A stretch of DNA of 64,000 bases from Daphnia pulex. Lineage: Eukaryota; Arthropoda; Branchiopoda; Diplostraca; Daphniidae. How positions within the stretch are numbered: position 1 is the first letter of the stretch; every line of letters starts with the position of its first letter. The notes under the pieces were generated by a model. The model had not been told where the DNA came from and ran no database searches. It worked only from the letters and a program-made list of their open reading frames with translations. The stretch covers positions 6,696,001 through 6,760,000 of the forward strand of contig NC_060025.1 of NCBI RefSeq assembly GCF_021134715.1, written 5' to 3'. A program made the position numbers and the translations under genes. Below, one piece after another: positions 136 to 37,200 of the stretch.

Positions 136-2161
136 ATGCATATATTTAAGACGTTGTTTTCCCAGTTGGACCGCCATCGTGTCTTTTACCTTTTGTGGCT
201 ACTCTTCTTACTCAACGTTTTCACCTTCAAACAACTGACATTAACCGAGGATGACGTTGATAGTAAAGAGTTGGTAGTTATCAAGCGCATTGACCGATCC
301 GCTTTTCGGCAACTTGATATGAAGAAAATTCTTATGTGGAATCCGTGGTATGGCGACTTTGGGTTCGCATTGGATGATGATTTTGCCTTCAGGTATGCTA
401 GAATTTAGAAGGGTTTTAATGTGGTTATAAATATTTTAATTCAAACATTTACTGCTGTGTGAAAGGTCTAAACTAGTAAACTGTATCAATATTTTAAGAC
501 GTAGAAAGCACTACATTTATTTACTTTAGTGGCTAGTACAAAGGAACTGAAAAATTAAAAAATAATTACAATTCATTTATAGTTTAATGATATCAGATCA
601 CGAGTGATGTATTTCTATTCTGTTTCACGCCAATGAATTTACTTTGCATCTAATATTGCCCCTCTCTTTCTATTTCGTTTATTAGTCGTGTCGGATGTAA
701 ATTTACAAATTGTATCCTGTCTAAAAATAAGAACATAGTTACCCCAGAACGTGCAGATGCCATCGTCTTCCTTTATACCAACTTGTGTGAATTACCAAAA
801 GTCCACGGGCGCCAAGAATACCAGCGATTTGTGTTGTTAACTGATGACCCCCCGATGTGCTATCCACGTAATTACTTCGAACGAAATAATCTTTTTGGAA
901 GTTTCTTCAACTGGACAATCTCGTATCGAGAAAATGCCGACGTAACATGGAAAAGAGGCTGGATCGAGAAGCTGGACAAACCTACCAAGAAAAATTCTTT
1001 CTCACAGTAATCATTCTAAGTCAATTCATTTTAAAATATTTATTTTTATATATGAAATATGATTTGAAACATATCCGGAAGAGTTGTTTTGGTATCAACA
1101 CTATCTTTCCGCAGATGTTCACGCATATTATCGTTTGGTGAATTTAATAAATTCTTTTCTAAACAGAATGCGATTGCGAACAAACAAAAAGAAAAAGAAA
1201 CTAGTCGGTTGGTATGTCGCTCGCTGTGGGTCCATGAGCAAGCGAGAAGGATACATCAACGAGTTGAAAGTATATACGTGGAGCATATGTACATAAAAAG
1301 GATGAGGATATGAATCAAATGTTGTTTTGTTTGTTTTGTGTATATGACAGGAATATATACAGGTGGATAGTTTCGGTCCGTGCGGAAATTTGAGCTGCCC
1401 AGAAACAAACGGATCGCCCGGGGAAGCTCTACAACCTTGCCTTGATATGCTAGCAGATAACTACAAATTCGTACTGGCATTCGAACGTTTCATCTGCGAT
1501 GATTTCGTCACCAAAAGATTTTTTGATCTCCTCAGTCGCGACACAGTTCCTATTGTCTTTGGGTAAGGAAAAGAATCGATTCATTTTTTACTTGTAATTA
1601 AATTCACAGGTTATATTTATTCCTGGGTGTAATACTGTAATACCTATTGATTCACATTATTATACAGAGGTGCAGACTATACTCGAATAGCACCACCACA
1701 TTCCTTCGTTGATGCTCTTTCATTCAATCCAAGACAGTTAGCTGATCGTTTATTAGAACTTGACAAAAGTGACCGCCAATACTATCGACACTTTTGGTGG
1801 AAAGATTTTTACCAGGTAACTCCTCCGTTAATAAAAATGTTAACATATAATTCAATATAAATGTTAAAAAAAAAAAACAGGTACATTCTGGATATCAAGA
1901 GTTATCTACTCGTCCGTTTTGCGACTTGTGCGAAAAGCTAAATAGCAATCTACCACGCAAAGTTTATCGGTACGAAATTCGATAGTTATAATTAGTCATA
2001 TTGCGTCATTAATATTTTTTCGTCGTTTAAATAGTGATATCGATGCATGGTGGTACAACAGCACCAAATGTTCTGGTCCAGAAGATCGTGGTATCGTGAT
2101 ACGTAATAAAGGTAACGAGGATCTGCACAGCATTCAAATCCCTTGGTCTTTGGATGATTAG
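136..2161 (+). CDS. Alpha-1,3-fucosyltransferase-like protein, GT10 family, degenerate motif
   Basis: Spliced model: 136-392, 686-1006, 1167-1269, 1351-1562, 1668-1815, 1881-1969, 2035-2161. All introns are GT-AG and all phases agree, giving about 418 residues. It has a type II Golgi glycosyltransferase layout: a short cytosolic tail, a hydrophobic anchor near residues 15-34 (YLLWLLFLLNVFTF), a stem, and then the GT10 domain. Family landmarks are ILMWNPWYGDFGF, VLLTDDPP, LVGWYVARCGS, FGPCG, VPIVFGGADY, APPHSFVDAL and FWWKDFY. Where active members have F-E-N-S-x-C-x-D-Y-[IV]-T-E-K, this protein reads FERFICDDFVTKRFF. The Asn and Ser of ENS and the Glu of TEK, which help bind GDP-fucose, are therefore absent. 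The acceptor-loop motif YRRDSDI..PYG is also altered (YRENADVTWKRG). The ATG at 136 was chosen because the reading frame upstream has no ATG. Assignment to the family is firm; enzymatic activity is doubtful. Confidence 0.85.
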
Positions 2162-3477
2162 TTAAATCAAAGTATTGAAATCGCTCAAGTCAACAACTAA
2201 AATTCATTAACAGCGAAGCTTACGCTTTCTGTATTCCGCAAATGTAAATGTCGTGATGCGTGAATTTTCCGTCCAAGAATATACAACAAATATTGTTTCG
2301 TGTGTCTTCCCTTTTTGTCATCAATCATCGTCATTACTCAGCACCCCTTGTGTCTGTTTTTGTAATTAGATTTCGTATTTATTTGTTACACTACTGTATG
2401 CAACTGAAGAGTAAAATCACTTAAATACACTGGTAACGCTAATTGATGCTGCGTGTGTTAACCCGGATGGCACATAGTGACGTAGACACCACACGATTTT
2501 TAAAAAATTTCTATCGTGCATCAATTGTAAATTAATCTGTAATTATCTCTTATTCTCTCTTCTTTAGCGTATTTTTTAATGATAATAATTTGAAACCATT
2601 TTTTTTTAATAATTAGATTACGCTGCATTAATTTTATTAATAATTTAAATTGACAGCCAAAAAGCCCATTTTTTGTTACTGGTTTTTCCAGTTCTCAGAT
2701 TAGGAGAATTTAAGGTGTTTAGAATATGCAGTAAGTCTGACGACGGGCGACTTATCTTAATTTCGTTTGTTAGCAAACTTAGAGACATATGTGGACTATG
2801 AAATTATTACATTTCTTAATGTTCAGCAGCTGTCAAACATTTGCTTGATAAACGCCCTGGGCTTGGTGAAACAAAGAACCACAGGTGTGTAGCGTAAAAG
2901 CGTCTATGCATTTTTAGGTTTATTTTTCAGTCTTGTGCGTCTTGGCGCGCCATCAGCTTTTAGAAGAATCCCGGTAGGTCGACGACTCTCGCTTTTGATG
3001 GCCGCTTTCTCTCCACGGCGAGTTCAGCGCAAGTTCGTTTTCAAGGTCAGCAGACATTTGGGGATGTGTCGGACTCTCCCAGGTGTACAAATACGGTATG
3101 TCGTCGGTCGGTCTACGCATATCTTTTGTCAAATTTTTTACGAAATATTACTGCCGGGTCCGGCAACTTGCATGGTCTTGCTGGCTGCTTCTAGTTCTTC
3201 TCAACGACCCCCAACCAAAAGAAAGGAGTAAAAACGTGGTGGATGGAGGCGTTGGGGATGTCTTGTGCTGTGTTTGTCCTTCCTTATGTTACGAAATGCT
3301 GGTTCGCCCCGAAGCGAAGACCAGCTTTAAACATGCAAGCATTTGACGACGCCCATCGTACTTTTATTTTCTTTTTGTCTTTTTCATTTTTACCTTGATT
3401 CCCTTGATGGCCGTTGTCGTTGTAGTATGAATACTTCTCTTCTTCAGGTGAGAGCACTTGTTGGGATTCGGTGAAGA
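2162..3477. other. Intergenic region and probable 5' region of the second fucosyltransferase
   Basis: No protein-coding exon could be supported here. The stretch 2925-3350 is more GC-rich than its surroundings and opens with TCAGTC at 2927-2932, a match to the arthropod initiator, so it may contain the transcription start and 5' UTR of the gene whose ATG is at 3478. No TATA box was seen at the expected distance. Open frames in this interval show no family motif. Confidence 0.4.
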
Positions 3478-6376
3478 ATGGCCGCTAGGAGAGAGATTAG
3501 ACATGTAAGTACAAATTGTTTACCGTACTATCTTTTTTTATGTACAGTATTTGCTGAATGATTTTGGACTTTTTGTGTAATCGAGTAGTTGATTACCTTT
3601 TTTTATACCTGTTTATACTTCTCAATCGATTACGTAATGCAAAAACGCTAAGTTTTTCTATTTAATTTACTTAATAATTGGCAGTTGCTTTAGTGCTTCT
3701 ATTTAGCAGATGAACGATTCTTTGCAGTTTTTAAAATTTTGTGATTATCGTCGTGAATCGTGAGCATTTTGAAAGTTCCGGATAATATTTTCGCCATCTA
3801 GCGAGTAGTCGTTAAAAATTTTAAAATCCTGGCGGGAAAATGCACGAATAGAAAGTTATATCGTGCACGTATATTGACGCAGGCCCGGATTATAATGTAG
3901 AAATTAGGTGAGAAAATTTTAGACAGACCAATTCAGAAAATTAGATACCGCGGTAATGACAATATTGGTAAAACCGTGGGATAGGAAGAGAAAAGGCTAT
4001 TTGTTAAGTCACGGTTCGCTGTCTAATTTATTTCCCAAGTTTATGAAAGATATCAGATTTTCATGTATAAAATGTAGAATGTTTGGTTCAACCACATTAC
4101 GGTAACGGTTCCCCCTCTTATTACCGCACCAATCGCAGTCAAAAATACAACAGGTAAACAACTGTATTAGATTTCCGGTAATGTTCAAGAACCAATTTAC
4201 TGACGCCAGCTTTTATGCATCATTTCCTCAATTATCCCGACTTCCGTGGTAGTAGTAATTCAAATAATATAATGTGCTGTAACTTAAGAATGTATTTCAA
4301 TGTTAGAAATTATTATTTTTATTTCACATCCATTTTTTGGTTTCTTAATTTCACGTTTCTTATTTTTTGTCATTTCATCAGATACTACCTTTGAAAGGTT
4401 ATCTCCAGAGCAAAGCGTCATCTGCCTTTGGCCGATGGAGTCGCCAATCGTCAACCACAGTGATACTCTACGCCCTGCCGCTAGTCTTGTTGATAGTCTT
4501 AACGCGTGATAATGAAGGGCAGCGATCTACCGACCTGGTAGCCCAGAAAGTGGCAGAAATCTACGAAAACGACCACGTCATCATCGCGTTCGTTAGTTGT
4601 TGATATTATCCGTTCAATCAGCCATGTCAACGTGTTTCTTTATTTGTCGTATATAAAACAGTGGAGTTGGCAATCGATCTCAATATGAGTACTGGGATCG
4701 GCCGGATCGTCACGTCGATCTAGCCTTGATCCGCGGCGACGAAGAGAAGGGCATTCCGGCTCTCAAGACGATTCTCTTCTGGAACGGCCTGTTTTACTAT
4801 CCAGACTACGCCTTTGGCAGAGGACGGCAACCTTTCATCGATGCCAAATGCCCCGTCACCACATGCCTGGCCACCGACGATCCTTACTTACTGGACTCGG
4901 TGGACCAGTACGACGCCGGTTTGTCAAAATGGTTTTTGAGTTTTGTTTTCGTTATGTGCTTCTTTCTTGACTGAGCTATTGTTGGTTTTGGCATTCTAGT
5001 CATGTTTCACTGGCCATCACTTTGTGACTATCCATATGTTGCATCCCGTTCCGAACATCAGCTTTTCGTCATGGTCTCGGACGAGTCACCTCAGGTATAA
5101 TTTTCCGTTTTATTTATGTGGTTTTTTTTGTATGAGAAAATTGGGAATGGCCATGTTTTTTTTTTTTTTAAGAATTTCTGAGGAATTTTATAATGCGAAA
5201 AAAAAGAAAGAAAGAATTTGTTTCATCAATCATGTTGTCAAATAAGGACTTTTTTTTAAATCAATGTTTTATCATTATTATTTGGTTCTTTCTAGTGGCG
5301 TTTTTCGGGGTACAAGCTGCCATTCTACAAAGATTTTTTCAATCTGACCATGACGTATCGGAGAGACTCGGACATTGAATGGCCGTACGGACAGGTGGAG
5401 GTTTTGCCTTCAGCGCCCATCGGTGAAGAGGAACTGTTGATTGCCCGTCGCAACGTTACCCGTAACTACGCGGCCGGAAAGAGCAAATTGGCCGTTTGGT
5501 TTGTCTCCCACTGCAAAACTGACTCTCGGTAATGAAACTTGACTTTTTGAGAGATTAGAGCTTTAAAATAATTCAGTTTTAGTATAGAAACGATTTAATT
5601 AATTCGAGAAAATAACTTTTGTTTGGAAATATTAGGCGAGAATTCTACGTTCACGTTCTAAAGCAGCACAGTCGCATCGACATTTTCGGCAAGTGCGGTA
5701 AACCGTTTTGTTCATTCGATCAACTGAACGATTGCTACCAGCGGATCGAGATCGATTACAAGTTCTACCTCTCTTTCGAAAATTCTCTCTGCCGCGATTA
5801 CATAACCGAAAAATTCTTCAATCTTCTCGATCGAAATATCGTCCCCATCGTCTACGGAGCGGGCAACTATGAAGCCATTGCGCCGCCACACTCTTACATC
5901 GACGCCCTTAAATACACGCCAGTTCAATTGGCGAAATACCTCGACATTCTCGACAAAAACGATACCCTCTACAACGAGTACTTTTGGTGGAAACCTTTCT
6001 ACAAGTTAGTAGGACTAAATAATATTTTAAAATTATATCCCTTAGAATCTTTTCATTCTTGTAATAGATCGCATTACGACTACAAAGAGATGGCCAACAT
6101 TGCGTTTTGTCAGCTTTGTCAGCAGCTCAATCAACCCCGGACACATGTTCAATGGTATCACGACATTGACGCGTGGTATGACGGTGGAAATCATTGCCAC
6201 AAACCTAATCGCTTCAAAGTACCGTATACATTTTCTTACCTTAAATTATGATTGGTAGAATGTAGCTCATTAATTAATTTCGATGATTTATTTGATGTTT
6301 TTAGGTCCCCATCAAACAATTCGACTTTGATAATTACACCATACCCGCTGATGCAGTTGTTAAAATTCCGTTGTAG
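3478..6376 (+). CDS. Alpha-1,3-fucosyltransferase (GT10), intact
   Basis: Spliced model: 3478-3504, 4382-4587, 4662-4918, 5000-5094, 5296-5528, 5636-6004, 6068-6218, 6305-6376, about 469 residues in continuous phase. The first exon encodes only nine residues (MAARREIRH) and splices in frame to the exon carrying the membrane anchor (TTVILYALPLVLLIVL). The donor of the second exon (GTTCGT) is non-consensus and is the weakest junction. The luminal domain has the full GT10 signature: ILFWNGLFYYPD, FVMVSDESP, NLTMTYRRDSDIEWPYG, LAVWFVSHC, IDIFGKCG, FYLSFENSLCRDYITEKFF, VPIVYGAGNY and APPHSYIDAL. Enzymes of this family transfer fucose from GDP-fucose in alpha-1,3 linkage to GlcNAc of N-glycans or glycolipids in the Golgi; the exact acceptor cannot be read from sequence. 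It lies in tandem, in the same orientation, downstream of a paralogue whose motif is broken, so it is probably the functional copy. Confidence 0.92.
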
Positions 6377-10855: not shown

Positions 10856-11450
10856 TATAGTCAAATTGTGCCCAAAAAGTGGGTATACCCCAAACAAATT
10901 ATTACCTGAATTTTTGTTCGTGAGCACTGTGTGTACTATAAAAATGTAGTTATTTTTAAAATACTAGTTAAAACTATCGTGTAGAACATGTATAAATCGT
11001 GATTTGAAATGTTATTTCCCGTGTAAATATCCTTTCTTGTTGAAATAAACCATTTAAAAAAATATTAAATTTTAGAAAATCTTTCATTCTATAAGTACCC
11101 AACTTTTTGTGCAGTTATAACGATATTTAGTATTTAAAAAAAAATTAAACGTAAAACCCAATATTTTGGGTGCATCTCACAGTGACGGAATCGCACTAGT
11201 AAAGGTGGCCATAAATAACAGCTTTTTTTTTTTGCTCATAAATATATAGTGTTGAAAGTAAAGTGTTTCATTAGTAAAATATATCACTAATAATTTGATT
11301 GTTTAGTAACTCGAAAAAGTACCCATTAATAACTAGTTCTTTAAGTAAAATGTCTCATAAGAACGAAGTTCTTGTGGTTCTTGTATCATAAGAACTTCGT
11401 TGCATTGAAAAATTGTCTCACTAGTATTTCTGTTCACAAGTAACATCAGG

Positions 11451-11533
11451 TTAGGTTAGGTTAGGTTAGGTTAGGTTAGGTTAGGTTAGGTTAGGTTAGG
11501 TTAGGTTAGGTTTGGTTAGGTTAGGTTAGGTTA
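11451..11533 (+). repeat. Interstitial telomere-type repeat (TTAGG)n, about 16 units
   Basis: Sixteen consecutive TTAGG units with one TTTGG variant (near 11511). TTAGG is the telomere repeat of most arthropods. The array is inside a transposable element with unique chromosomal sequence on both sides, so it is interstitial and not a chromosome end. Confidence 0.97.
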
Positions 11534-11560
11534 TAAAATTGGTAATTCCCTAATCACAAT

Positions 11561-11750
11561 CACGGCGAAGCCGTGAACATCATATTATTATCATCCACGG
11601 CGAAGCCGTGAACGTCAAGTTATTATCAATCACGGCGAAGCCGTGAACATAATTTTATTATTATCCACGGCGAAGCCGTGAAATTAAATTCGGTATCATC
11701 CACGGCGAAGCCGTGAAATTTACATTCGGGATCATCACGGCGAAGCCGTG
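11561..11750. repeat. Six palindromes CACGGCGAAGCCGTG at an exact 35-bp period
   Basis: The 15-bp inverted repeat (6-bp arms, GAA loop) occurs at 11561, 11596, 11631, 11666, 11701 and 11736, a constant step of 35 bp. It is often extended to TTCACGGC...GCCGTGAA. The 20-bp spacers are AT-rich and related to each other (blocks such as ATTATTATC), so this is a short tandem satellite with a conserved hairpin core. It lies just after the TTAGG array inside the nested element. Confidence 0.95.
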
Positions 11751-13263
11751 AATATCATACTGGATCATAGGGGGTGTTACTGTTGATGCCTGTTACTAAC
11801 GAGACGTTGTCGTTATACTACAAAATACTACTGTATCACTTTCCCTTTTCACACGAAATTTTGAAAAAGAATTATGAAACAATTTACTATTGACCATTTG
11901 TTGGTATGAAATAAATAAATTATTTAGAAAATTTTGATTTTCTTCCGAACGGTATTATTTGAGATACGTTTTACTAGTGATACACTGTAGCCATTTTCAA
12001 TTTTACTTGTGATACAAATTACTATAGTACGATACTTAAGCGCCTTTTTACTACTGCGATTCCGTCATAGTGCTACGCACCGAATATTTTCCCCCGCGAA
12101 AAAGTGTTTCCGTATTTAACACAGCCGCTTATGGGAAAATGGTTTTTTTTTAAAACAGTATTTACATGACATCTTAGCACATAGAAATCCTTCCTTGGGT
12201 TCATTTTATAGCTAAAGAGTCATTCTATCTTATTCATTTATATTTATTCAAAAGGGGACATTCGTTTAGAAGTTATAACCGATATTCTAGGCCCTAATTT
12301 TGCATATTTTCCAAGTGTTTTGCATTAGTGAGTAACACACCCGCTTGGTGGTGATTAGCACAGCCGCTATCCGCTAGAAGGGGCTGCACTCCAAGCGGGT
12401 GTGTTACTCACTAATGCAAAACACTTGGAAAATATGCAAAATTAGGGCCTAGAATATCGGTTATAACTTCTAAACGAATGTCCCCTTTTGAATAAATATA
12501 AATGAATAAGATAGAATGACTCTTTAGCTATAAAATGAACCCAAGGGGGGATTTCTATGTGCTAATATGTCATGTAAATACTGTTTTTTAAAAAAACCCA
12601 TTTTCCCATAAGCGGCTGTGTTAAATACGGAAACACTTTTTCGCGGGGGAAAAAAATTGGGTTTTACGTTTAATTTTTTTTTAAATACTAAATCTCGTTA
12701 TAACTGCACAAAAAGTTGGGTACTTATAGAATGAAAGATTTTCTAAAATTTAATATTTTTTTAAATGGTTTATTTCAACAAGAAAGAATATTTACACGGG
12801 AAATAAAATTTCAAATCACGATTTATACATGTTCTACACGATAGTTTTAACTAGTATTTTAAAAATAACTACATTTTTATAGTACACACAGTGCTCACGA
12901 ACAAAAATTCAGGTAATAATTTGTTTGGGGTCAAATCGCCAATTTGACTATACTATATAGCCAATCGGGAACCGGCCCGGGCGCCCGCCCATCATTTTTT
13001 AAAACTGCGCTTTTTTACCACTGTTTATCTCTCACCTGAAGAAACCCTTGTTGTTTTCTGCTTGAAATTTTTAACAACATAAACTTTTGTGCGGAATTTC
13101 TCAAATTGAATTTAGCGGCGTGATTTCTAACAATCTGCTCAGTTCTCAATGGGCATATCTCATCAGAAAAATTAGTAATTGTAAATGTGGTTTGTAAAGG
13201 CTTAACAAGCAATTCATTTTAACTGGTTCAGTCAGAAAGCAATTGAAATTCACTAATGTCGAC

Positions 13264-19224: not shown

Positions 19225-19371
19225 AAAAAATCTTGAAATCAAGGAGCGCTTAACAAACGCTAGTTTAGATTGTTGATATAGCAGAGGATAAAACTACAAT
19301 TTCGGATATTTCAAGGTGGTATTGGACAAAAGAGCCGATCTTTTAACGTCCTAATACCTTTTGCCTAATGA

Positions 19372-20075
19372 CTAGTATCGCTAAGTTGTCCTTCCACTAG
19401 TAATCGCAACAGAGTCGCAATGGAATCAGCATATTTGATGAAGGAATCGAAGGAATAGGAGTCGAATTCTTGAAACATTTCTTTCAAGCACAGGTTATTC
19501 AAGGACCTTAGGGCATTAAAGCGGCACTCAACCGTCAATGGTTAAATATCATCTTGAACAAGGAGGATCCAGACAGAAAAACATAAACAATTTTTGGGGT
19601 CATATTTATTAGCTAAGGATTTCAAGTGTTGACGGTGATGTAGTGTTGAATATAATCGCCGATAGGAATCCGCAACTTTGTACCCGGATAAGGTTTGCAT
19701 GAAGCACAGAAAGCCACCAGTTATCAGCCGCTGCACTCCTTCCATCGTCGCGCATGATTTAATTTGCCAATCCGAGGAGATGAAAGAAAATTGCTTTTTA
19801 GCGAGGGCGGAGGGACAGAAACTGGACATTTCAATCCCATTTCGAAAAGAATGGCCCAAGGGAGACATCATAAATGCCATTTACTTTTTAAGCTGAAATA
19901 GAGCCTGCGCCAACCCTATTAAATTTGTTGGCTTCCCAATCGTAAACGGTAGTCGCTTGATCCTTGGGGTAGGGTACGTTCCATCTCGTTCTCCAATCCT
20001 TCTTTTTGTAGATAGGGTCCTTATTTCTTCCGTTGACCTTTTTTTGTTGTTTTGATCCCATATAGTCCCAATCAA
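19372..20075 (-). pseudogene. Open frame with two in-frame stops, conserved in both arms (left copy)
   Basis: Read from 20075 downward, one frame is open for about 235 codons except for two TAA stops, at 19881-19883 and 19542-19544. Both stops are also present in the other arm at matching positions. Segments are 63-64 residues (ending ALFQLKK), 112 residues (MAFMMSPLGH... ending LLVQDDI) and a last part (PLTVECRFNALRSLNNLC... ending DTSH). No family is recognised. It may be a decayed gene, or coding in a way I cannot resolve, such as splicing around the stops. It lies downstream of four-jointed on the same strand, so it could also simply be its 3' UTR. Confidence 0.35.
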
Positions 20076-20441
20076 TTGCCTGTTTGCAGTGATGATTTAT
20101 GACTCTTTCTTAACTGAAAGGGATTTGCCGTTTTCACAATAAACAGGTCAGAATTCTTATTTCTTCTGTCCGATCCACGTGTTGGCTGGCAGATCTTTCA
20201 AAATCCAGTGAAAGAGGAGGTGGTAATTAGAAACGGAATTCTAAAGCAATGAAACGGGACTGTTTCCTGTACGAATGGCTCTGCTATAGTTGGTTTCGTG
20301 TCTGTTTTCAGTTTCAGCTCAGGCATGCGAATAGTTTATCCATCACCGTTTCATGTTGGATGTCGTCCTTTTTTGGCTGTAGAATACGCGGTATTGGAAA
20401 ATTCGATATGAGTTGTTATCACGTACACCAAGGGCAGAGTT

Positions 20442-22067
20442 TTAGGAGCCATAAAGAGATTGGCACTTGGCCACTTGGTCCAGCACTTGATCAATTCGAT
20501 AGTTGAGGGTCTTGATGCTCTTCTCCGGAAGGAAAGGTAAAAAGTCCACAACTGATTGATCGCGAGTTTTCAACATGTCGCGCAGTAAATGTCCGACATT
20601 TTTCTGCGATTGCAACTGCCGCAGCGACTCGACTGTCGTTCGTCTGAAAACGCAGAGCGACTCGAGGAGGCTCTTGTGGTAGATGTCGTACTTGTCCAGC
20701 AGGCGGTAGCCGTGCAACAGGCCACTTTCGTTGTCTAAAAAGACGAGTAAACCCGTTCGGGAATCGCGTGCCAGATTGTGAGCGGGCGAATCCATCATGG
20801 CCGGATTCCACTGCATGTTGTACAGATTGTTGACCATCCTATCCAGATTGGCTGTCAGGTAGTCAAAGATCAAAAGATCAGACCACTGGGCCAACGTTAT
20901 CAACTCGCTGCGGTCGACCTTCTCTTGTAGCCTGTGGTGTTGCACGTCCAACGGATTCAGATGCCGATCGCGCCCTCGAAACTGAACAGGAATGTAGGCC
21001 GGCTCCAAATCATTCAAAAACTGCGTGTGGACAACTGGTCGGTTTTCCGTCCACTGCGCTTGGCTGAGAGACGATTGGACGTTCATCCATTGGCGCTCTC
21101 GTGGTCGGACCAGACCCACAGACGACGGTGGCAAATTGCGTAAGCCGAGTAAGCGGCTCAGGTAGAAGCTGAAGATTTCGCCCTGGATCTGGTCGTAGTT
21201 TTGGCGGTAGCGGCAACACGACTGTCTGCCATTTTCAAAAGTCACGAGTCGATTTTGCATTCGGCCGCATCCCTCCTCGACACGTTGAACTGAACTCTGG
21301 TGGCTAAAGTCGCGCCACTCTTTTGCGTTTAGTTCGTCGAAACCTGTTGGGAGACTGTCCTCCACTTCTTGTGACCAGAAGATACCTTTGACAGCTTCCC
21401 CCAAAACAGTCGTCGTCAGACTGCGTCCGTCTTCATTGGCGGCAGGTAGAGAAGTCCAGGCCGTTTGCGGGTGAACGAAACTGACGACATCGACCGTTGC
21501 TGCTGCTGCTGCTGCATCTTCTTCTTCGGTTGTTGAGTTCACATCCGTCAGATTGGACTTTAAGTCAAGCGTTTTACGACGAGTCGACTGCCTTTCTTTT
21601 TCCTTTTTACTCAAATGAGCTTTCATCTTCAAGGGTGACATGCGGACGGGAATACTTGACGTGTTGTTTCCTTTGCTGGTCAAGTTGAGGTGCCCATCAG
21701 CGATGGTAGGAGATGAGTCTTGAACGAGGGTCCACGGAGTCATCACAGCTGTGCTGTTGTTGTTGATTTCGTTGACGAAAGGAGATGAGCCGTAGAGGAC
21801 AGGCAGCAGAGCGACACCAACTCCAACACCCAGTGCAAATGCCAGACATGTGGTAAGGAAACAAAGCCACTTGGAGGCCCGACGATTGCCGGCTACGTGT
21901 CGGTACGATTGGCCGCCAAATGCGTCACCATTTTCCGCCGTACCCGCAGTCATGGGGCCGTGCGACACGCAATGAACGGACAGTGAAGGACGAGGGCATT
22001 CCATTTCATAAAATGAGCACGTCCCACGCATTCGCCAGCTGGTAGTCAAACAATGATGTGAGAGCAT
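20442..22067 (-). CDS. fj: Four-jointed/FJX1-type Golgi protein kinase, left copy
   Basis: Single-exon frame of 541 residues from ATG at 22067. A type II anchor lies at about residues 66-90 (WLCFLTTCLAFALGVGVGVA). Then comes a Ser/Thr-rich, low-complexity stem with an Ala run and several N-x-S/T sites. The luminal kinase-like domain begins near EEGCGRMQNRLVTFENGRQS. Signature segments are NYDQIQGEIFSFYLSRLLGL, LIFDYLTANLDRMVNNLYNM (catalytic-loop-like, with D..N.DR) and LLVFLDNESG (metal-binding DNE), near residue 440. In flies Fj phosphorylates Ser/Thr in cadherin repeats of Fat and Dachsous in the Golgi, tuning planar polarity and growth. It differs from the right copy by a handful of substitutions and two codon indels (one Asn, one Ala), all outside the motifs. 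A TATA plus initiator promoter lies about 0.35 kb upstream. Confidence 0.92.
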   Translation of the reverse strand: MLSHHCLTTSWRMRGTCSFYEMECPRPSLSVHCVSHGPMTAGTAENGDAFGGQSYRHVAGNRRASKWLCFLTTCLAFALGVGVGVALLPVLYGSSPFVNEINNNSTAVMTPWTLVQDSSPTIADGHLNLTSKGNNTSSIPVRMSPLKMKAHLSKKEKERQSTRRKTLDLKSNLTDVNSTTEEEDAAAAAATVDVVSFVHPQTAWTSLPAANEDGRSLTTTVLGEAVKGIFWSQEVEDSLPTGFDELNAKEWRDFSHQSSVQRVEEGCGRMQNRLVTFENGRQSCCRYRQNYDQIQGEIFSFYLSRLLGLRNLPPSSVGLVRPRERQWMNVQSSLSQAQWTENRPVVHTQFLNDLEPAYIPVQFRGRDRHLNPLDVQHHRLQEKVDRSELITLAQWSDLLIFDYLTANLDRMVNNLYNMQWNPAMMDSPAHNLARDSRTGLLVFLDNESGLLHGYRLLDKYDIYHKSLLESLCVFRRTTVESLRQLQSQKNVGHLLRDMLKTRDQSVVDFLPFLPEKSIKTLNYRIDQVLDQVAKCQSLYGS

Positions 22068-22417
22068 CGCTTCAAATAACACATCAATTGTCGAATCTTT
22101 GGTAGGTGGTGCACATAATCACAAACACAAATCTATTGCAGAGTATTTTCAGTTGAATTTAAATCCAAGTTTTTTCAAAAGAACCCGTTCGATTGTTATT
22201 GTTAAAACATAATTGCTAATGTTGCTTGTCACTCATGGAAGTGCACTTTTGAACTGACTTTTTTCTTCTGTCACTTTTGCGCCAGGAAACAGCCAAACGT
22301 CAACTAATAGAAACAAATCAACAAGTACACCACGAGAATCAGTACAATCAATTGTTGAGTATTAGCGAGATATGCCCATCAGTGTAGGACATCCACTCCG
22401 ACTGACTTTGAGACTCG

Positions 22418-22453
22418 TTCTGACTTGAACAACAGACAGGCCCAAAGTATATA
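22418..22453 (-). promoter_or_regulatory. Core promoter of left four-jointed: TATA box plus initiator
   Basis: On the minus strand, TATATA (22448-22453) is followed by an initiator TCAGAA (22418-22423). Its A lies 32 bp from the first TATA base, the canonical distance. Transcription would start at about 22421 and give a 5' UTR of about 350 nt before the ATG at 22067. The same arrangement exists in the right arm. Confidence 0.65.
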
Positions 22454-25017
22454 CAGCAGGTAAGCCATCACCTGGTCAGGTTTCCTGCTCCGTTGTTGGA
22501 GCCAATAAACGACCATCTAGCACCTCCCACTCTGACTCTGTGCTTCTCAAAGTGAAATACCTCTGGCAACGAACGATGTGTCGGTGCTCTGCCTCGTCGT
22601 CCCTATAAGCCCCTCCTAAGGCACCTGGAATAGCGAGTATCAACATGTAAATGAAAGAGGCAAATCCGAGGGGCATCTCCTCTTCTCTCGCGTGTCTCCT
22701 CCCATGCACATGCGCTATTTCTTTCATTCTTTCCTTTCGTTATTTGCCGATTACGAATTCAAGAAATAAAGAAAACATCGCGCAAACATTCTTAAGATTT
22801 GCCTTTCCACACGTTTTTCTATTTCCGAAGCAATTTTTACTTTGCCCCAAAAAGGTTTTAGATATTATAGGGGTTGACGACTCGGATTGATGTAGAAAAT
22901 TCTATCAAGCGGGGACGGTGGAGAATAATTGGAACTGAAAATATGTTGAAGAAATCCAATTCAAAGGAAAAGAAAACTTTAAGATTGGAAAATGCCGCTA
23001 TCAGCTGCCTTCCTAGTCTTCTCCCCCTACATGTCTTTCATCCATTCAAAGTATAAAAAATTTATTTCTATAACTGCAGGGGTAGTCGCGGTCATTTAGG
23101 AATGCGAAACCTATAGGCTATGGGAAAAAGGAATAATAAAACAGCCTCGACCGATAATCACCATCATATATACCGCACATTGCGTGTAATTCATCGTTTG
23201 CCGATTCCATGAGGATTACAATCAAGACACCAATTGGAACAAAAAAAATTTAAACGGAGGAAATTCGAGTTGGAAAAGATATTCAAATCATTACGTACTC
23301 AAAATAATTTCAATTTGCCGCATTTTCTGAAATCAGAGCGTGACGGTCTGGAACACAATACACAGAGCATGACTTGACTACAGCATGTGGAAATAACTTT
23401 GACTTCTCATACGGTCTGCACAAGACAAAGTATTTGCTTGCGATGGGACCGGAAATCTTTCTTCTTTTGTTAGGGAGATGGGGGGGGGATGAGGATAGGA
23501 TCTCGGATGGAACGGGCAGCACGTCGAATGCTGAAAAGAGAAGAATGAAAGGTCAGATTTGACCTTTCGTGCCGTGGAGTCAAAGAAAATGTCTGGTGGT
23601 CACACAAACCAGTAAACCCAGGTCCATATGAAGATAAAGAAAAAAGAAAAAGAAAAAAAAGAGAGTTGCTTTTCCCAAACATTTTCCCAAGCATTCGTGG
23701 GATTCCATTCTCCCCTGGATATCTTGTCATCCGACTACTTATCAATTCCGCTCGAGAAATGTTTGTTCCATCTAGTTGTTTCTCGTATTGAAACTCTTGC
23801 ATATCACCGGCACCGGCAAAATCACAGTACAACTCTCCATTATTTTTCTCTGTATAAAAGATACCATCTAATGACTGGTAGTACTAATTTTCTCATTACT
23901 AAGTTACCTGGATCCACTGGTGTTGTCCTGGAGCTGTTATCACGTATATCCTATCTTCGTTTACAAAGCCAACATGTAATGATCTGTTTCGGAATTTATA
24001 TTTACCATTTTATTTTACCTTCATACAATTTTACCTTCGTTTAAACGAGACGTAAATCGTGATGTAAAATATTGTTCAACAGGTTGTTACGTCTTGGGTT
24101 ACGTTGATCAATAAATTTATTTACATATTAGAGATCACAGAATATTACGAAACTACTAATAATTATTATAACGTCTAAAAAGTTTTCCTCTTTTTACTAT
24201 AACGTGATGAGATCACCCCGTTTTTAGTTTTTATTTTTAAACAGCAGGAAATTGAATCTTGATGTCCTGCTCGGTCCGGTGCGCTTTGTCGGAGGGGGTT
24301 CAAGCGGGTGGGAGAACGCGGGAGAACGCTTATAGCGCTTGACCCCACCCCTTATTAACAAATTTAAATTGACAATGGTAGATCAACTTGCTTGAATTGA
24401 AGCTTAAAATATACCTATTTGTATTCGATATCGCAAAGTAAAGTTACCTTGGTAACATTTTTTTAAAAGACGAAAATCCCAGACAGATGAAACACCAACA
24501 AAGAAACAAACTCATCATTTGCTGTCGTTCGGTTCCAAAGCTAGCTCGGACGCTATTCTCAAAATGGGCTTCGCTCTCCCTCGCTTCCCCCCTCTATCTC
24601 TTTTTCTCTTCACCCAAAAAATGGGAATAAAAGGGAAGAAGAAGAAGAATGAAGATGGAGAAGAAGGAATCAAGAAGCAGGTCGAAACGAAAGCCAGAAT
24701 ATGCTGGATATCCTGCGGTTTTTATACGTCCTTTCTCGGATGGTGGAACCTTGACTAGCAGTCACAGTATGGGGCAGAAATGGTTGAGCGGAGCCGAGTG
24801 TGCAGCTGACCTGCAGGAGGCTCATCCCCAGCGGCAAGGGAAAAGAGGCCCATCAGTACAAAGCATATACACCTATATTTTTTCTTTAGACGTATCGTCG
24901 AGAAGAATTTATCCCCTCTCTCATTTCCTTTACCTTCTCTCCCTCAGCAGACCCCCTTACACTCTTTGACTACCGAAAACCGAAGTTTAAATTTTACGTG
25001 GAATAGAAACATTCAGT

Positions 25018-25135
25018 GCGTTTCAAATTTCTAAATGGTTGCCAAGAAATTGTAGGAAGTAAATTTCTGTGAAGGTGATTTTAAGTTAAAAGAAAGTATG
25101 CCTAAATGCCTATGTGGAACTAAGCGATACAGCAG
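25018..25135 (+). repeat. Diverged direct repeat, copy 1 (copy 2 at about 26158-26350)
   Basis: The string GTGCGTTTCAAATTT, then GGTTGCCAAGAAA, GTAG.AAGTA and AAGTTAAAAGAAAGTA, recurs in the same order and orientation at 26158-26350, where the copy contains extra AT-rich sequence. The spacing is about 1.14 kb. Together the two copies bracket the hairpin and the GC-rich block, as if the intervening DNA had been inserted or tandemly duplicated. Confidence 0.6.
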
Positions 25136-25190
25136 CAAATGAGCAAATCGGCCCATTGCACAAAAATAACGATCGATATACGAAGAATTT

Positions 25191-25311
25191 CGCGAAGAAG
25201 CCAGTGTGTGACATGCAAATTCGAGTTGTTTGCTGGCATCGGCGGGCGACGGCCGCCGTACGATGCACGAAACCAACTCGAGTTTGCCTGTCATACACTG
25301 CCTCCTTCGCG
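25191..25311 (+). ncRNA. Long hairpin, candidate microRNA precursor or small inverted repeat
   Basis: Positions 25191-25242 pair with 25260-25311 over about 52 nt, with around 7 mismatches plus two G-U wobbles. The stem opens with CGCGAAG/CTTCGCG and contains the block CTCGAGTT. The loop of about 17 nt is GC-rich (GGCGGGCGACGGCC). Length and imperfect pairing suit an arthropod pri-miRNA stem. No known mature microRNA was recognised. The hairpin lies in the segment found only in the left arm. Confidence 0.35.
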
Positions 25312-25400
25312 GATGGTGGCATGATCTGAATGAAAACGAGATGAGAATGAATAAAATTGATGGAACATCTAAAATCACCCGAATCAAATAGCACAAAATG

Positions 25401-25441
25401 ATAACGGTTCCGGTTCCGTATATCCTCTCGGAACCGTTATA
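25401..25441. repeat. Short perfect inverted repeat ATAACGGTTCC / GGAACCGTTAT
   Basis: Two 11-bp perfect inverted copies flank 19 bp. No T-run follows. No function is assigned. Confidence 0.6.
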
Positions 25442-26053
25442 TCATTTGATGCATTGATTTTGGGAGATAACAGATGAAAATGAACAAAAATCGAGGAATG
25501 AACAGGATCCAGGGAGAACCCACAAAGAACTTTTCCTTTGCTGGTAAACGTAATGCTACTTAATAATAATACCTATTAACGTGCGGGGGCGGTGGTGGCG
25601 TAGTGGACTATGGTGGCGACGGCGGCGAGCGAAAATGCAAATGTTATGCAGTTCAAACTCCGCTTAATTCACGTTCTCGTTATTCCTTTTTTTATTATTT
25701 TCTTCTTCTAATTGTTTTGGAGGCACGTTCGCGAGTCAAGTGAACTGATGTAACAAAGAACCGGTCGCTCTTTTTTTGGCACGTTCCAAATAACGACGTG
25801 TTACCTACTCAACACTTTTCACAGCTCTAATAAGGTTTCAGATATTTCGTCATCTGAGCGCCATCCGACATCAACGATCGAGCGAATCCGTCCGCTGCCA
25901 GAGCACTGCGTCTTTCACCGACGATAACGGATACCCTCGTCTTTTCTCCTCGACCGTCTCCTTCTTCTACGGCCCGCTGTCCGTCATGATCTTCACCTGC
26001 TGTACCGAATCTATACCGGTCCCTTCGACTGGGCATCAAACAGAGGTCGTCAT

Positions 26054-26155
26054 GGCATCGACAGGTGAAATCGGAAAAGGAACAGGAGGAGGGTCGGGGC
26101 CATCAGGATCCGGCGGGTCAGGATCGGCTAAAACGGTCGAAACCTATTTGAAACC
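26054..26155 (+). CDS. Possible orphan first exon, Gly/Ser-rich
   Basis: ATG at about 26054 opens a frame encoding MASTGEIGKG, then a Gly/Ser-rich stretch and KTVETYLKP, which ends at a good GTACGT donor at 26156. Local GC content is well above the flanks. No acceptor exon was found nearby, the frame has no recognised family, and the right arm lacks the sequence. It could be a first exon whose remainder is distant or lost, or chance composition. Confidence 0.2.
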
Positions 26156-26829
26156 GGTACGTTTCAAATTTAAACGGTTGCCAAGAAAATGTAGAAAGTA
26201 TTTTTTTTTAAAGAAACCGCATCATAATTTACGTTTAAGTACCTAGTAAATTTCATGCAATTTTAATTCGCATCTTACTTTTGAGTTTTGATTAAAATTA
26301 TTATAAGTTAAAAGAAAGTAGGTCGGTATGTTTATGTATCAAGCAGCAATACAAATTTAGTGAAAAATCAATCAATCAATAATAATTCAAACGAATAAAT
26401 GCAGACATTGAATTGATTTCGAATGCTGGATGCAAATCACAGTAGAACGGGTGAAATGAAACATTGCAGCTGTATAGGACTCAAAACCCGTTGTACTACC
26501 TTTTACCGAAACCGTAAAAACGAAAAAGAAGAAAAGCAATAAAAAGAAGAATGAGATGGCACTATAAGGTGAAATAGCCAGCTAGCAATGACCTGGATGT
26601 CATAAAAATCATCACGAGGTTACTATACACGGTAAAGTGTTTTACGGCGTTTTATTGATATTTGCGTAGTGATTTATTGATTATTTGAAGAAAAAAAAAT
26701 CCCTTGAACCAAGCCGTAAACGGGCCTGTAATAAGGTGGTCGTACAGGCTGCAAACGAAACATGTATGGGTTATTGAGTAAGTCTGTCGGTAACCACCGA
26801 GTCAAAAGTGGATTCCGCAGTTCGTGTCC

Positions 26830-29800
26830 GACGGTGTCCGTGTAGACGTAACGGAATACGTGATGATGATGGAGGAACGCTTGAGTTTCCCCTTATAATA
26901 ATCCCACTAATAACAGCTTCTTGTTGGAGCCAGCCCTACAATTTAACAGTAGCCCACAAGTTAAGCTGGCACGTGAATACATGATTTGAAGCCGACAAAA
27001 TGATTCCAAGTGTAGCCTATAACTAAAAAGCCCTTCCGTACGAGTTGCCACAAGTCCGACTATGTAGTACAAACAAAATTGTTTCAACTGTTCTTTTTGT
27101 TTGAGAATATGACTGGTTTTATAACAGCCACAATGAGTCGGCAAGCCTTTTTATTTACTGCTTTTCTCTTATGATTGACAACATCCAGTCATCATGATGG
27201 ATAGAAAATCTTTTTTTAACGCGCCTGTACAATAGTGCGTTTTTTTTATGATATTCAATATCGTCGGGGCGAGTCAAATTTCCATTTTATTAAAATTTAA
27301 AAAAATCTTTTTAAAGCCCATTTACCTTAATAAAAATTGAAAATAGATTAAAACAAAGAGACGACTGTTTGGTACCATACCGTTCTTTTCGGTTCTTTTG
27401 ATCTGCTTTTTTTTATTAAAATATTTACTTGACTTGACATAATGTACCCGACTGTATACCTACTGCAAGTTTAAAAATGATCGCCGTTATTTCCATTGAT
27501 CCTAAGTACTTCTCAATTCTGTAGAGCATCGGTTTAGGCCGATTTCAATCCCAGTGGCTGAGTGGCGATGGTGAAATAGAGGTGAAAAATATAGTAACTT
27601 TCCTTCACATTTTCTCCCAGTAGTGTAAACTGTATACACCAATGTCTGGTCACTTGGAAAGGTGAAGATTTGTATAGCGGCTTTCCAAAGAGCATATACT
27701 ATACAGCGATTCTACCCAAAGTTAAAAGGACAAGTCGTTATACAAGTTTAGGCTGAATAATGGGCTACCGTTTCTACGCTATGGTGGTGACCCTGTTCGT
27801 CAAGAAGCCGGCCAAGAACATTTATACACAAATACGGACAAGAATACGGATGAATAATTTGACCTTCTGAAAGTCTCATTGGAATCGTTTGAAATACTAC
27901 CGGCATAAAGCGACGATAAAAGGTGAAAAGAAGAACAGGAATCAAAGCTAGAATTTGAGTAAAGAAAGGCAAGGGAAAAAGTAACGCATAATAGGGATAG
28001 AAAGAATGAAATGCAGGTAAAAAAAAAGAAAAGAAAAGAGGTACGTATAGGAAAAAGAAGTTACAAAAAGGGAAAAGGAGGAACTCTGCGAGATGGGAAA
28101 GCGCCACGTTTCAAACGAGCAAGACACGACCATCTCTTCAAAAGCACTCCTCAAAAGCTTCTATAAATGCATACGTACTCGATATGGCAACGGATTTGTA
28201 GTGTTTCACTCGTTTAAATAACGACAACGAAAATAACGTATTAACGAGCCTCGTTATCGACTTTTTTGGAAAATGCTCGTTTTTTTCGTTAACGATAACG
28301 AAATGGCTGTTTTTTTCGTTGTTTTCGTTAATTTCTTGCTAAATTTTTCGTATCAAAACCGTAGAGATTTCAAATTTTTTGACCACCAGGGGAACTTTTT
28401 TTTCCCTCAAAATTTGGAATTTTCAATTTTGGGATGACCACCTACTAGCGACTTAGCGATCCCCTAGCGAGGAATTAGGCCATTATTTTCGCATCATTTA
28501 TTTCTACATCATTTGGCCTAACAGGCCTTAGAAAACTAGGTTCTAAAAAAAAATTGTAAGGTAAACGATAACGGTCGCAAAAACAGAAAAATGCGACACG
28601 TTTAAATTAACGAAACGAAGAACGAAACGAATGAAAAATTGAAAAAATAACGATTAACGATAACGATAACGAATCCAAAAAAGCACAACGGTGAAACACT
28701 ACGGATTTGTCAATGTCAGAGCAATCAACCCCAAAGTCAGCTGTACGAGTCATGCGAAAATTCAACTCTATACGTTACGAGGAAACAATCCAGATCCTTC
28801 TTCTCATCGACAATTTATACGACTTCGTTTTTTCTATTATGCTTTTGAATATTCGATGTCGATTGTGGTTCTCCATCAACGTTTCCTATTCTTTGCGAAT
28901 CCCTTGCCGGCTTTCTCATAATACGCTTGAAGTTGGAAATCCAGATTTCTGTTGATACCTATACATGCTGGATACTTAAGGTATTCTATTTCTATGTTCC
29001 AACGGTCGTTTACATCTCGGCCAGACGTCAGCCAACCAGCAACCATACATAGATGATAGTATGGGGGACAGGATGGAAATGGGGAACGTGAATGACAGAT
29101 ATTCACAATCGTTGAGTATCATAAGTCAATGACAGCCGAAGGATTTGAGATAAGGTTGGATTGCCAAGGTTGAACGATTCTCCTTGATCAGCTGTCTCGA
29201 ATAATCTCGCTTTGTCTTAAGGGTCGCCTATGGGTAAAATCCTGCTCCCAAAATGCCAGAGACGTCAATTGAACTTAGGCTATGCATGTCATTTGCATTT
29301 TTCTCGCCCAATAATACTGTTATAACTGATGCGTACTAGTTTGCTTCATAAGCTGAACCTATCCCAATCTCATTTTATATGCAACATACAGTATTATTGC
29401 GCCAGACCACTATGCAGTGTGTCTAGCTACTAGATAGGAGACCACGGAAGATGTATACCCCTACCTTTCTACTTGTTTCTTTTGAGGGAGAAAAAAAGGA
29501 GAGTTCAGGTACGGTCACATCGGTTTCACAACATTGTTCAAGCGAGCTAGCTAGCAGCTGCTCAATTCGAAATAGTTACATTCAACTGAATCCCATTTCA
29601 GAAAGATGTTTCAGTAGTCAAGAGAGACCTTGCTGCTCCGAGGGTGTACAATAGATGTAGCGTAATGATCTTCTCAGCGGGATATTTGGCCTCGGCCACG
29701 GCCAGGACTCTGAAGCACAGCGCACAATCATTCCACAATCAAATGCCAGAACGAACATATGGAAGAGCCAGCGGAAGGAAAGAAGAAAAGATAGAATAAG

Positions 29801-30620
29801 GGAAATAACGACAAAAAATAAAATAAAACTTGTATATCTGTGATTGTTAATATTATTAAAAGAATAAGTGCTTGGAAATTCTACCATTCAACATCTAATT
29901 TATTTTAATAGTTTCGTTTTTTTTTTTTTTTTATTTCTTCAGAGAAATAAGACAAAGGCAACCAAAAGTTCAAAGTCGGCTTATTGTATCTCTGTCACCT
30001 GCGTTTGTGTTTAATGGGGCGACAAACTTTTTCTATAAAAAGTCCGTGAGGGATTGCAATTGATTCACAACTTTGTATCATATTTCGCAACAGCCGTACC
30101 GTACAATTATATAGTATCCGACTATCCGCGTTGGTGTTATCGGCTTGTTCGAATGTGTAACGATTACCATAAACACGTCACTGCCCACCTTCTAGTTGGC
30201 CGGCCTTCCTTCCTCAACTAGAAGCCTACGGGCGCTATTTCATCTCGCATACATCTTCTCTGTCAAGGAACAACCCGGCCATCTTGATTATATTCTTCTT
30301 ATCCTCTCCCTCTTTTCCTTTTCTTATTTCTTGTTCTCTTCTGTGTCTTCTACTTTATCCCTTCCCTTACTGTGTACATGTTATCCACAACAACAAAACA
30401 CGTAGGCTATATACGACGATAGACGCAGCAGACTTGCTCATTTAGTAAAGCTTTGAATAATTTGAAAAATACACACATAGTGGATCAATAGATTCAACAA
30501 TTGATCAGACTTACTTGCCAACTCCTCCCCTCTGACTGAAATTTTGTTCCGTTCAGAAAATGGAGGAGCGCTCTTAAGTATCCTATCGTACCCTACCAAG
30601 TTTGAACAATTTAGAATATA
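26830..30620 (-). repeat. Near-identical inner tract of the left arm
   Basis: Apart from the MITE, this tract and 34690-37960 look essentially identical: every open frame in one is unchanged in the other, in stretches of up to 119 codons. No protein-coding gene is supported inside it. It contrasts with the more diverged flanks, including four-jointed itself. Confidence 0.75.
28200..28701. mobile_element. hAT-like MITE, 502 bp, with 8-bp target duplication
   Basis: Perfect 11-bp terminal inverted repeats TAGTGTTTCAC (28200-28210) and GTGAAACACTA (28691-28701) are flanked by CGGATTTG at 28192-28199 and 28702-28709. The right arm holds the uninterrupted site at 36577-36584, so the insertion is directly demonstrated. 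The TAGTG terminus and 8-bp duplication fit the hAT superfamily. The interior is AT-rich with many AACGATAACG-type motifs and no frame. Confidence 0.93.
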
Positions 30621-30950
30621 GCTTTCAACGTACCTTCAGCTTCGCCTCATATATTACCATTTTAAAGTCTTGTTTAAAGGGTGAAAATGATCGAGGTTAG
30701 CACGGGAACGTCAGAAAACTTAAATCCTTAACAGTACAAATGAAAGAAAAATTTAGACTTACAAGAAAGAATGAAATAGATCGCTGAAAGTTTAAAAAAA
30801 TTCCAATCCGCACTTTTTTATCAGTGACAGTTGTACGAGTGCAAAGGGAGCTTTAGAAAATGGCAAATAAAAAAAATTAATGAGTCAATTGTAGGAGGAA
30901 AATACAGCATAACGTGCCATATGTCGATCTGTCGTTTATAATTGTACCGT

Positions 30951-34297: not shown

Positions 34298-37200
34298 AAG
34301 GTACAATTATAAACGGTTATAATACATATGGCGAGTTATGCTGTATTTCTCTCCTTCAATTGACTCAAAATTTTTTTAATTGCCAATTTTCTTAAGCTCC
34401 TTTTTCACTCGTAGCCTACAACTGTCACCGAGTTATAAAACAAGTGCGGATTGGAATTTTCGAATACTTTCAACGATCTATTTCTTTCTTTCCTGTACAG
34501 TCCTAAATTCTTTCGTTTGAACTGTTAAGGATTTATATTTTCTGACGTTCCCGTATTCTTTAAAGCATGCTGCTAAACCTCGATCATTTTCACCCTTTAA
34601 AAAAGGCTTTAAAATGGTAATAATAAATGGGGCGAAGGGAAAGAAGCTGAAGGTACGTTGGAAGCTATATTCTAAATTGTTCAAACTTGGTAGGGTACGA
34701 TAGGATACTTAAGAGCGCTCCTCCATTTTCTGAACGGAACAAAATTTCAGTCAGAGGGGAGGAGTTGGCAAGTAAGTCTGATCAATTGTTGAATCTATTG
34801 ATCCACTATGTGTGTATTTTTCAAATTATTCAAAGCTTTACTAAATGAGCAAGTCTGCTGCGTCTATCGTCGTATATAGCCTACGTGTTTTGTTGTTGTG
34901 GATAACATGTACACAGTAAGGGAAGGGATAAAGTAGAAGACACAGAAGAGAACAAGAAATAAGAAAAGGAAAAGAGGGAGAGGATAAGAAGAATATAATC
35001 AAGATGGCCGGGTTGTTCCTTGACAGAGAAGATGTATGCGAGATGAAATAGCGCCCGTAGGCTTCTAGTTGAGGAAGGAAGGCCGGCCAACTAGAAGGTG
35101 GGCAGTGACGTGTTTATGGTAATCGTTACACATTCGAACAAGCCGATAACACCAACGCGGATAGTCGGATACTATATAATTGTACGGTACGGCTGTTGCG
35201 AAATATGATACAAAGTTGTGAATCAATTGCAATCCCTCACGGACTTTTTATAGAAAAAGTTTGTCGCCCCATTAAACACAAACGCAGGTGACAGAGATAC
35301 AATAAGCCGACTTTGAACTTTTGGTTGCCTTTGTCTTATTTCTCTGAAGAAATAAAAAAAAAAAAAAAACGAAACTATTAAAATAAATTAGATGTTGAAT
35401 GGTAGAATTTCCAAGCACTTATTCTTTTAATAATATTAACAATCACAGATATACAAGTTTTATTTTATTTTTTGTCGTTATTTCCCTTATTCTATCTTTT
35501 CTTCTTTCCTTCCGCTGGCTCTTCCATATGTTCGTTCTGGCATTTGATTGTGGAATGATTGTGCGCTGTGCTTCAGAGTCCTGGCCGTGGCCGAGGCCAA
35601 ATATCCCGCTGAGAAGATCATTACGCTACATCTATTGTACACCCTCGGAGCAGCAAGGTCTCTCTTGACTACTGAAACATCTTTCTGAAATGGGATTCAG
35701 TTGAATGTAACTATTTCGAATTGAGCAGCTGCTAGCTAGCTCGCTTGAACAATGTTGTGAAACCGATGTGACCGTACCTGAACTCTCCTTTTTTTCTCCC
35801 TCAAAAGAAACAAGTAGAAAGGTAGGGGTATACATCTTCCGTGGTCTCCTATCTAGTAGCTAGACACACTGCATAGTGGTCTGGCGCAATAATACTGTAT
35901 GTTGCATATAAAATGAGATTGGGATAGGTTCAGCTTATGAAGCAAACTAGTACGCATCAGTTATAACAGTATTATTGGGCGAGAAAAATGCAAATGACAT
36001 GCATAGCCTAAGTTCAATTGACGTCTCTGGCATTTTGGGAGCAGGATTTTACCCATAGGCGACCCTTAAGACAAAGCGAGATTATTCGAGACAGCTGATC
36101 AAGGAGAATCGTTCAACCTTGGCAATCCAACCTTATCTCAAATCCTTCGGCTGTCATTGACTTATGATACTCAACGATTGTGAATATCTGTCATTCACGT
36201 TCCCCATTTCCATCCTGTCCCCCATACTATCATCTATGTATGGTTGCTGGTTGGCTGACGTCTGGCCGAGATGTAAACGACCGTTGGAACATAGAAATAG
36301 AATACCTTAAGTATCCAGCATGTATAGGTATCAACAGAAATCTGGATTTCCAACTTCAAGCGTATTATGAGAAAGCCGGCAAGGGATTCGCAAAGAATAG
36401 GAAACGTTGATGGAGAACCACAATCGACATCGAATATTCAAAAGCATAATAGAAAAAACGAAGTCGTATAAATTGTCGATGAGAAGAAGGATCTGGATTG
36501 TTTCCTCGTAACGTATAGAGTTGAATTTTCGCATGACTCGTACAGCTGACTTTGGGGTTGATTGCTCTGACATTGACAAATCCGTTGCCATATCGAGTAC
36601 GTATGCATTTATAGAAGCTTTTGAGGAGTGCTTTTGAAGAGATGGTCGTGTCTTGCTCGTTTGAAACGTGGCGCTTTCCCATCTCGCAGAGTTCCTCCTT
36701 TTCCCTTTTTGTAACTTCTTTTTCCTATACGTACCTCTTTTCTTTTCTTTTTTTTTACCTGCATTTCATTCTTTCTATCCCTATTATGCGTTACTTTTTC
36801 CCTTGCCTTTCTTTACTCAAATTCTAGCTTTGATTCCTGTTCTTCTTTTCACCTTTTATCGTCGCTTTATGCCGGTAGTATTTCAAACGATTCCAATGAG
36901 ACTTTCAGAAGGTCAAATTATTCATCCGTATTCTTGTCCGTATTTGTGTATAAATGTTCTTGGCCGGCTTCTTGACGAACAGGGTCACCACCATAGCGTA
37001 GAAACGGTAGCCCATTATTCAGCCTAAACTTGTATAACGACTTGTCCTTTTAACTTTGGGTAGAATCGCTGTATAGTATATGCTCTTTGGAAAGCCGCTA
37101 TACAAATCTTCACCTTTCCAAGTGACCAGACATTGGTGTATACAGTTTACACTACTGGGAGAAAATGTGAAGGAAAGTTACTATATTTTTCACCTCTATT

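Follow-up and report, generated by a model that had tools for sequence, protein, structure and literature searches.

Why does a small, non-coding mobile element of Daphnia pulex carry an array of the telomere repeat TTAGG, and does that repeat do anything for the element? The window analysed here is a 64,000-nucleotide stretch of the genome (contig C9, 6696001–6760000). At 11168–12082 it contains a non-coding element of 915 bp, whose ends (11168–11203 on the plus strand and 12047–12082 on the minus strand) form 36-bp inverted repeats, identical at 29 of 36 positions. An 8-bp target-site duplication, AATATTTT, flanks the element at 11160–11167 and 12083–12090. The array starts 281 bp into the element and occupies 11449–11533 on the plus strand. 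It has 17 units, 16 of them GGTTA and one GGTTT, the fifth from the right, and the 36-bp ends are free of any TTAGG unit. A search for four-unit TTAGG with at most two mismatches gave 15 matches, all inside this array, and none in 100 shuffles. Downstream of the array, beyond a spacer (11534–11560, plus strand), lie six 35-bp repeats (11561–11759, plus strand), each of which includes the hairpin CACGGCGAAGCCGTG. The fold of the 35-bp stretch was more stable than every one of 200 shuffles (z = –5.9). Coding capacity is nil, the longest stop-to-stop frame that overlaps the element being 52 aa. An earlier note on this DNA had described the element, and its coordinates, inverted ends, 8-bp duplication and count of about 16 units were all confirmed; the 35-bp repeats had gone unmentioned there.

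The surrounding DNA bears directly on how the element arrived. The element interrupts a palindrome (10887–12931) with 541-bp arms, 98% alike, and a 42-bp centre. The left arm is split into an outer part (10887–11167, plus strand) and an inner part (12091–12348, plus strand), whereas the right arm (12391–12931, minus strand) is intact and contains the target sequence once. When the element and one copy of the duplication were omitted by script, the arms were identical at 530 of 541 positions. The intact arm is thus a natural empty site, which shows that the element was inserted. The host palindrome may itself be a mobile element of the foldback type. Elsewhere in the window, 19238–30948 and 34300–44395 form a large inverted duplication, 94–99.7% identical in five blocks. 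Each arm of this duplication has a near-identical open frame of 556–558 aa (20442–22118 and 41553–43223), whose product looks like a four-jointed-type protein.

A DNA search of the assembly (133.19 Mb in 13 contigs) identified four full copies of the element, termed family A, on four contigs: the window copy on C9 and one each on C4, C5 and C10. (Contig C13, of 15,333 bp, looks by eye like a crustacean-type mitochondrion over the 8000 bases read.) With the array removed, pairs of full copies differ by 7–12 mismatches over 832–833 aligned positions (0.8–1.5%). The 8-bp duplication is exact in three of the four and blurred in the C5 copy. Arrays of the full copies comprise 17, 17, 21 and 27 units, with one additional variant unit in the C5 copy. 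Counted from the right, the fifth unit is GGTTT in every one of them. This shared position shows that the array predates the dispersal of family A and has changed in length on one side. In a ragged fifth copy, L013, the leftmost bases are missing and the array is 11 units long, two of these being GGTTT. L014, a fragment on C4, is without the ends but has the array, together with eleven of the 35-bp repeats. Family A shows the hallmarks of a MITE, namely inverted ends, target duplications of constant length, and near-identical copies with no coding capacity. Like satellite-bearing MITEs, it also keeps its array at a constant internal position, in the four full copies and in L013. From its sequence features, family A is most probably a non-autonomous TIR DNA transposon with 8-bp target duplications. 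The earlier proposal of a dispersed family of such elements with TTAGG inside is therefore upheld by the four full copies and L013, all of which have the repeat.

Elements that share only the ends of family A tell us how tightly array and ends are linked. The A-end motif, with at most two mismatches allowed, matched 36 places in the genome, versus one for the reversed control. Eight of these matches belong to the full copies, two to L013, 24 to four long elements (L017–L020) and two to fragments (L052 and L082). The earlier note had raised the question of whether all copies found through the ends contain TTAGG, and at what length. The answer is mixed: five copies have the array, with 11–27 units, but it is absent from L017–L020, L052 and L082. 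The array is thus not a fixed part of every A-ended element. The long relatives measure ∼7.7–8.1 kb and have three tandem units of ∼210 bp on each side, each unit resembling one family A end, an arrangement of apparently foldback-like design. Duplications of 8 bp were read by eye in L017, L018 and L020. None of the four long elements has a run of three TTAGG or a hairpin of the 35-bp type.

What the long relatives contain is quite different. L017 has an INTS1-like gene fragment at 1893–3276, and the same stretch is present in L018 and L020. One L017 frame matched INTS1 chains of solved structures with an E value of 1e-23, a second matched the Pfam family INTS1_INTS2-bd, and a third had no Pfam match. 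L018 is 99% like L017 throughout and L020 is 97% like it in blocks, while other parts of the L017 interior have matches of 86–95% over 1 kb to other places in the genome. L019 encodes gag and aspartyl-protease domains at 4170–5755. Across six frames from L017, L019 and L020, Pfam returned INTS1 in one, gag/protease in two and nothing in three. L017, L018 and L020 would represent an animal TIR element that captures genes. The different cargoes found between A-type ends imply that the TTAGG core is one cargo among several. We also considered the long elements as autonomous partners of family A and rejected them in this role, their contents being the INTS1-like fragment, pieces of the genome, and gag/protease. 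No transposase that would link A-type ends to a superfamily such as hAT, P, MULE or Merlin was seen, either in the interiors compared or in the Pfam frames of L017, L019 and L020.

The internal part of family A is not confined to A-type ends. Searches with the element and with one locus of a second family, B, showed that at many loci the array recurs in different flanks, together with a spacer like that of A and with 35-bp repeats. Matches between the element and the B loci are limited to this core, and the spacer of the window element is partially like the one that family B has in this position. At seven of the ten B loci read, the right end is CTAG followed by T, and the flanks diverge at that point. 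Helitrons are described as ending in CTRR and inserting between A and T (PMC4067079). In the stretches read, which cover its 3′ end, family B has the CTRR end and the following host T of a Helitron or HINE, and we call it Helitron-like. Because the core is common to A and B, one family most likely acquired it from the other, or both from a common source. B is the more diverse of the two, and, if diversity reflects age, this suggests that the core originated outside A.

To what extent are the interior TTAGG arrays of this genome carried by such elements? Our census unit was a TTAGG run of at least five perfect units, with shorter or impure arrays falling outside the count. Searches over every end phase found 36, 12, 6, 5 and 23 array ends, 82 in total, and the reversed-motif control gave no match in each of the five phase searches. 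These ends correspond to 63 loci, of which 23 are close to a contig end (within 100 kb) and 40 are interior (>100 kb away); the family assignment covers the 40 interior loci. We read 16 of 22 ends of the form '...TTAT' and then the 11 interior loci that were still unassigned, so that each of the 40 was inspected directly or coincides at least in part with a DNA match to A or B. Family A accounts for five of the 40 (four copies and a fragment), B for eight, C for 12 (11 plus the C-like L079, with 78–83% likeness over 65–85 bases), D for ten, and a single element, E, for one. Four loci (L072, L074, L077 and L078) are unassigned. Hence 36 of the 40 interior arrays reside in mobile elements or fragments of them, 35 in four dispersed families and one in a single TIR element, and most long interior TTAGG arrays of the assembly are borne by mobile elements. 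Among the copies read, the position of the array is constant within each family. The prediction that the window element's family seeds interstitial telomere sites across the genome thus holds for mobile elements taken together, but family A itself contributes only five of the 40.

Families C and D and the element E differ from A and B in their ends. The six C copies in which both ends are present measure 629–741 bp, and the inverted ends of the family start GGTTAAATCTATTG. A 9-bp target duplication is exact in four of seven scored C copies (L053, L059, L061 and L063), and in L057 as well, provided that an additional GGTTT at its terminus is assigned to the element; it matches at 7 of 9 positions in L060, and L055 is without its left end. 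The extra GGTTT of L057 stands before the terminal GGTTA of the left end, inside the duplication, and the telomere-like terminus of this copy seems to have gained a unit. The family D copy on C9 is 1828 bp long, has the ends GGTTAAAGTCTATTTTA, and is flanked by the 8-bp duplication TTTGCACT; this one copy is the source of the duplication length, as the other D copies were read for ∼700 bp or less on each side of the array. The TIR element E, 317 bp long, occurs singly (L069) and has the 9-bp duplication AGTATCCTT. That E might represent a fifth family with several copies was considered and rejected: its end regions recur elsewhere at 78–86% over 46–80 bases, and a search that skipped simple repeats returned no other match to the whole element. 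By eye, C and D seemed to contain tRNA-like modules; neither Rfam at E ≤ 0.1 (7 loci) nor ARAGORN (9 loci) found any, and we do not claim them.

Array-masked C and D queries gave no match around the array to A or B loci, with one exception, a match between L055 and the flanking DNA of L017. C and D had no mutual match among the matches listed. Both begin GGTTAAA.TCTATT, however, and by this common start the two families may be related. The arrays may thus have arisen independently three times (the A/B core, C and D) or fewer.

Several explanations for the array can be weighed against these data. The case that the earlier note had named against itself, a microsatellite expansion unique to one copy, found no support. 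The array is present in four full copies and L013, and the variant unit is common to the four, leaving this explanation with practically no probability. Another account derives the array from direct capture at a chromosome end, or from addition by telomerase during break repair inside the element. The telomeric repeat of Daphnia is TTAGG (PMC4427308), the motif of the array, and TTAGG or its complement extends over kilobases in 6 of 19 contig-end stretches (L031, L037, L039, L041, L042 and L044). Donors also exist, as 23 further loci lie less than 100 kb from the end of a contig. The left terminus of contig C4 (L034, C4:1–8000) carries a tandem satellite of ∼495 bp that includes the same 15-base hairpin as the core, on the opposite strand, about once per 495 bp (5 of 6 among the matches listed). 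The 9-base centre of the hairpin has 16 matches in these first 8 kb of C4 and two in L031. Judging from this likeness, the hairpin part of the core may come from a chromosome end. Yet TTAGG units are absent from L034, and none of the 19 contig-end stretches contains the 13-base hairpin centre in the orientation found in the element. Moreover, the core that A shares with the more diverse B would have started outside A. Direct capture by family A, as the earlier note had envisaged, is thus not needed to account for the array, and we regard it, together with telomerase addition within the element, as rather unlikely. Such capture or addition may nonetheless be the source of the first arrays, including those of C, D and E. 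That family A inserts at or near telomeres had also been suggested, and the sole support for this is the telomere sequence inside the element. None of the 36 A-end matches (at most two mismatches) comes closer than 575 kb to a contig end, the one at C1:575212 being the closest, and the target duplications are AT-rich and non-telomeric. There is no sign of telomere targeting by family A, and we consider it very improbable, bearing in mind that just 6 of the 19 contig-end stretches reach a telomere array, so A copies in unassembled ends could be missed.

The reading we favor, with a probability of about 0.78, is that the TTAGG arrays are passenger microsatellites, spread by transposition and resized by slippage. 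Family A would move via its inverted ends, presumably using a transposase from elsewhere, and generate 8-bp duplications. The middle of the element, the array followed by the hairpin-forming 35-bp repeats, would be passenger DNA, probably exchanged between A and B or drawn from a common source. Every transposition would plant a new interstitial telomere-repeat site, and the array would then be resized by slippage and decay with age, as array lengths and purity in this one assembly suggest. C, D and the single E would bear TTAGG arrays likewise, each at its own fixed place. A pure passenger model leaves unexplained why the telomere motif recurs in families that are dissimilar around the array. 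This recurrence is what one would expect if the array were a working part of the element, binding telomere proteins or attracting telomerase or replication factors, and thereby aiding persistence or spread. In line with such a role, arrays sit at fixed places in families whose ends differ (A, B, C and D, and the single E), the termini of C and D likewise start GGTTA, and the composition-matched reversed motif is absent. However, the reversed motif is the one pentamer compared, long A-ended relatives exist without the array, and arrays in diverged B copies are short and interrupted (seven units in L027, six in L028), like unselected microsatellites. A working array therefore strikes us as distinctly unlikely. 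We are just as doubtful that the families independently acquired the host telomere repeat and kept it as a useful module, for example one that recruits telomere-repeat-binding proteins. Were this true, the interior telomere sequence of this lineage would record convergent adaptation among transposons, not the scars of chromosome fusion or breakage. These families offer a testable case of whether carrying a telomere motif benefits transposons. Both the passenger and the functional-module readings are compatible with a chromosome-end source of the first arrays.

Interstitial telomere repeats are usually viewed as relics of chromosome fusion or break repair. With 36 of 40 interior arrays borne by elements, interstitial sites, TTAGG probes and telomere k-mer counts would partly report transposon history in this genome. 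A study of tandem repeats in D. pulex does not use the word 'transposable' in its available text (PMC3152781). Work on D. magna ranks AACCT second in abundance among the k-mers of both species, the accessible portion giving no location (PMC6934441). As far as the accessible parts of the open-access literature go, we found no description of TTAGG-bearing transposons in Daphnia or other arthropods, and none of an internal host-telomere array in several animal transposon families.

The earlier note knew of no described element that combines telomere repeats with inverted ends and a clean target duplication. This stands for the exact combination only, as the TBE elements of Oxytricha are inverted-end DNA transposons that carry host telomere repeats (PMC4724952). 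TBEs, in the portion of the literature available, are Tc1/mariner elements with three genes, a 42-kD transposase, an ANT duplication and a short telomere repeat in each TIR. Family A, by contrast, has an internal array of 11–27 units, 8-bp duplications and no genes; its TIRs are free of TTAGG, and it shows neither a 42-kD transposase nor an ANT duplication. Other mobile elements associate with telomere repeats by targeting them, among them the retroelements SART/TRAS and, in rotifers, Athena. MoTeR and CNL1 are likewise telomere-targeting retroelements (PMC12810828). Family A resembles all of these, as far as they are described in the sources available, in being a mobile element linked to telomere repeats, and differs in its inverted ends, its lack of reverse transcriptase and its not being found in telomere repeats.

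Comparison with other non-autonomous elements separates the two families that share the core. DINE-1 and HINE elements are non-autonomous Helentrons and Helitrons (PMC4067079). Family B is like them, within the features given there, in its CTAG end followed by T and its internal tandem repeats, whereas family A is not. MITEs with micro- or minisatellites are on record, including the (GTCY)n MITEs of moths and Xstir/Xmix and miDNA4 of Xenopus (PMC6947457, PMC9659126). As characterized in the available text, these are, like family A, short and non-coding, with inverted ends and a tandem array that is spread by transposition. Family A differs from them in that its array is the host's own telomere repeat and that several families in one genome carry such an array. 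Satellite-bearing MITEs are thus known, and what appears to be new here is an internal host telomere repeat in several families.
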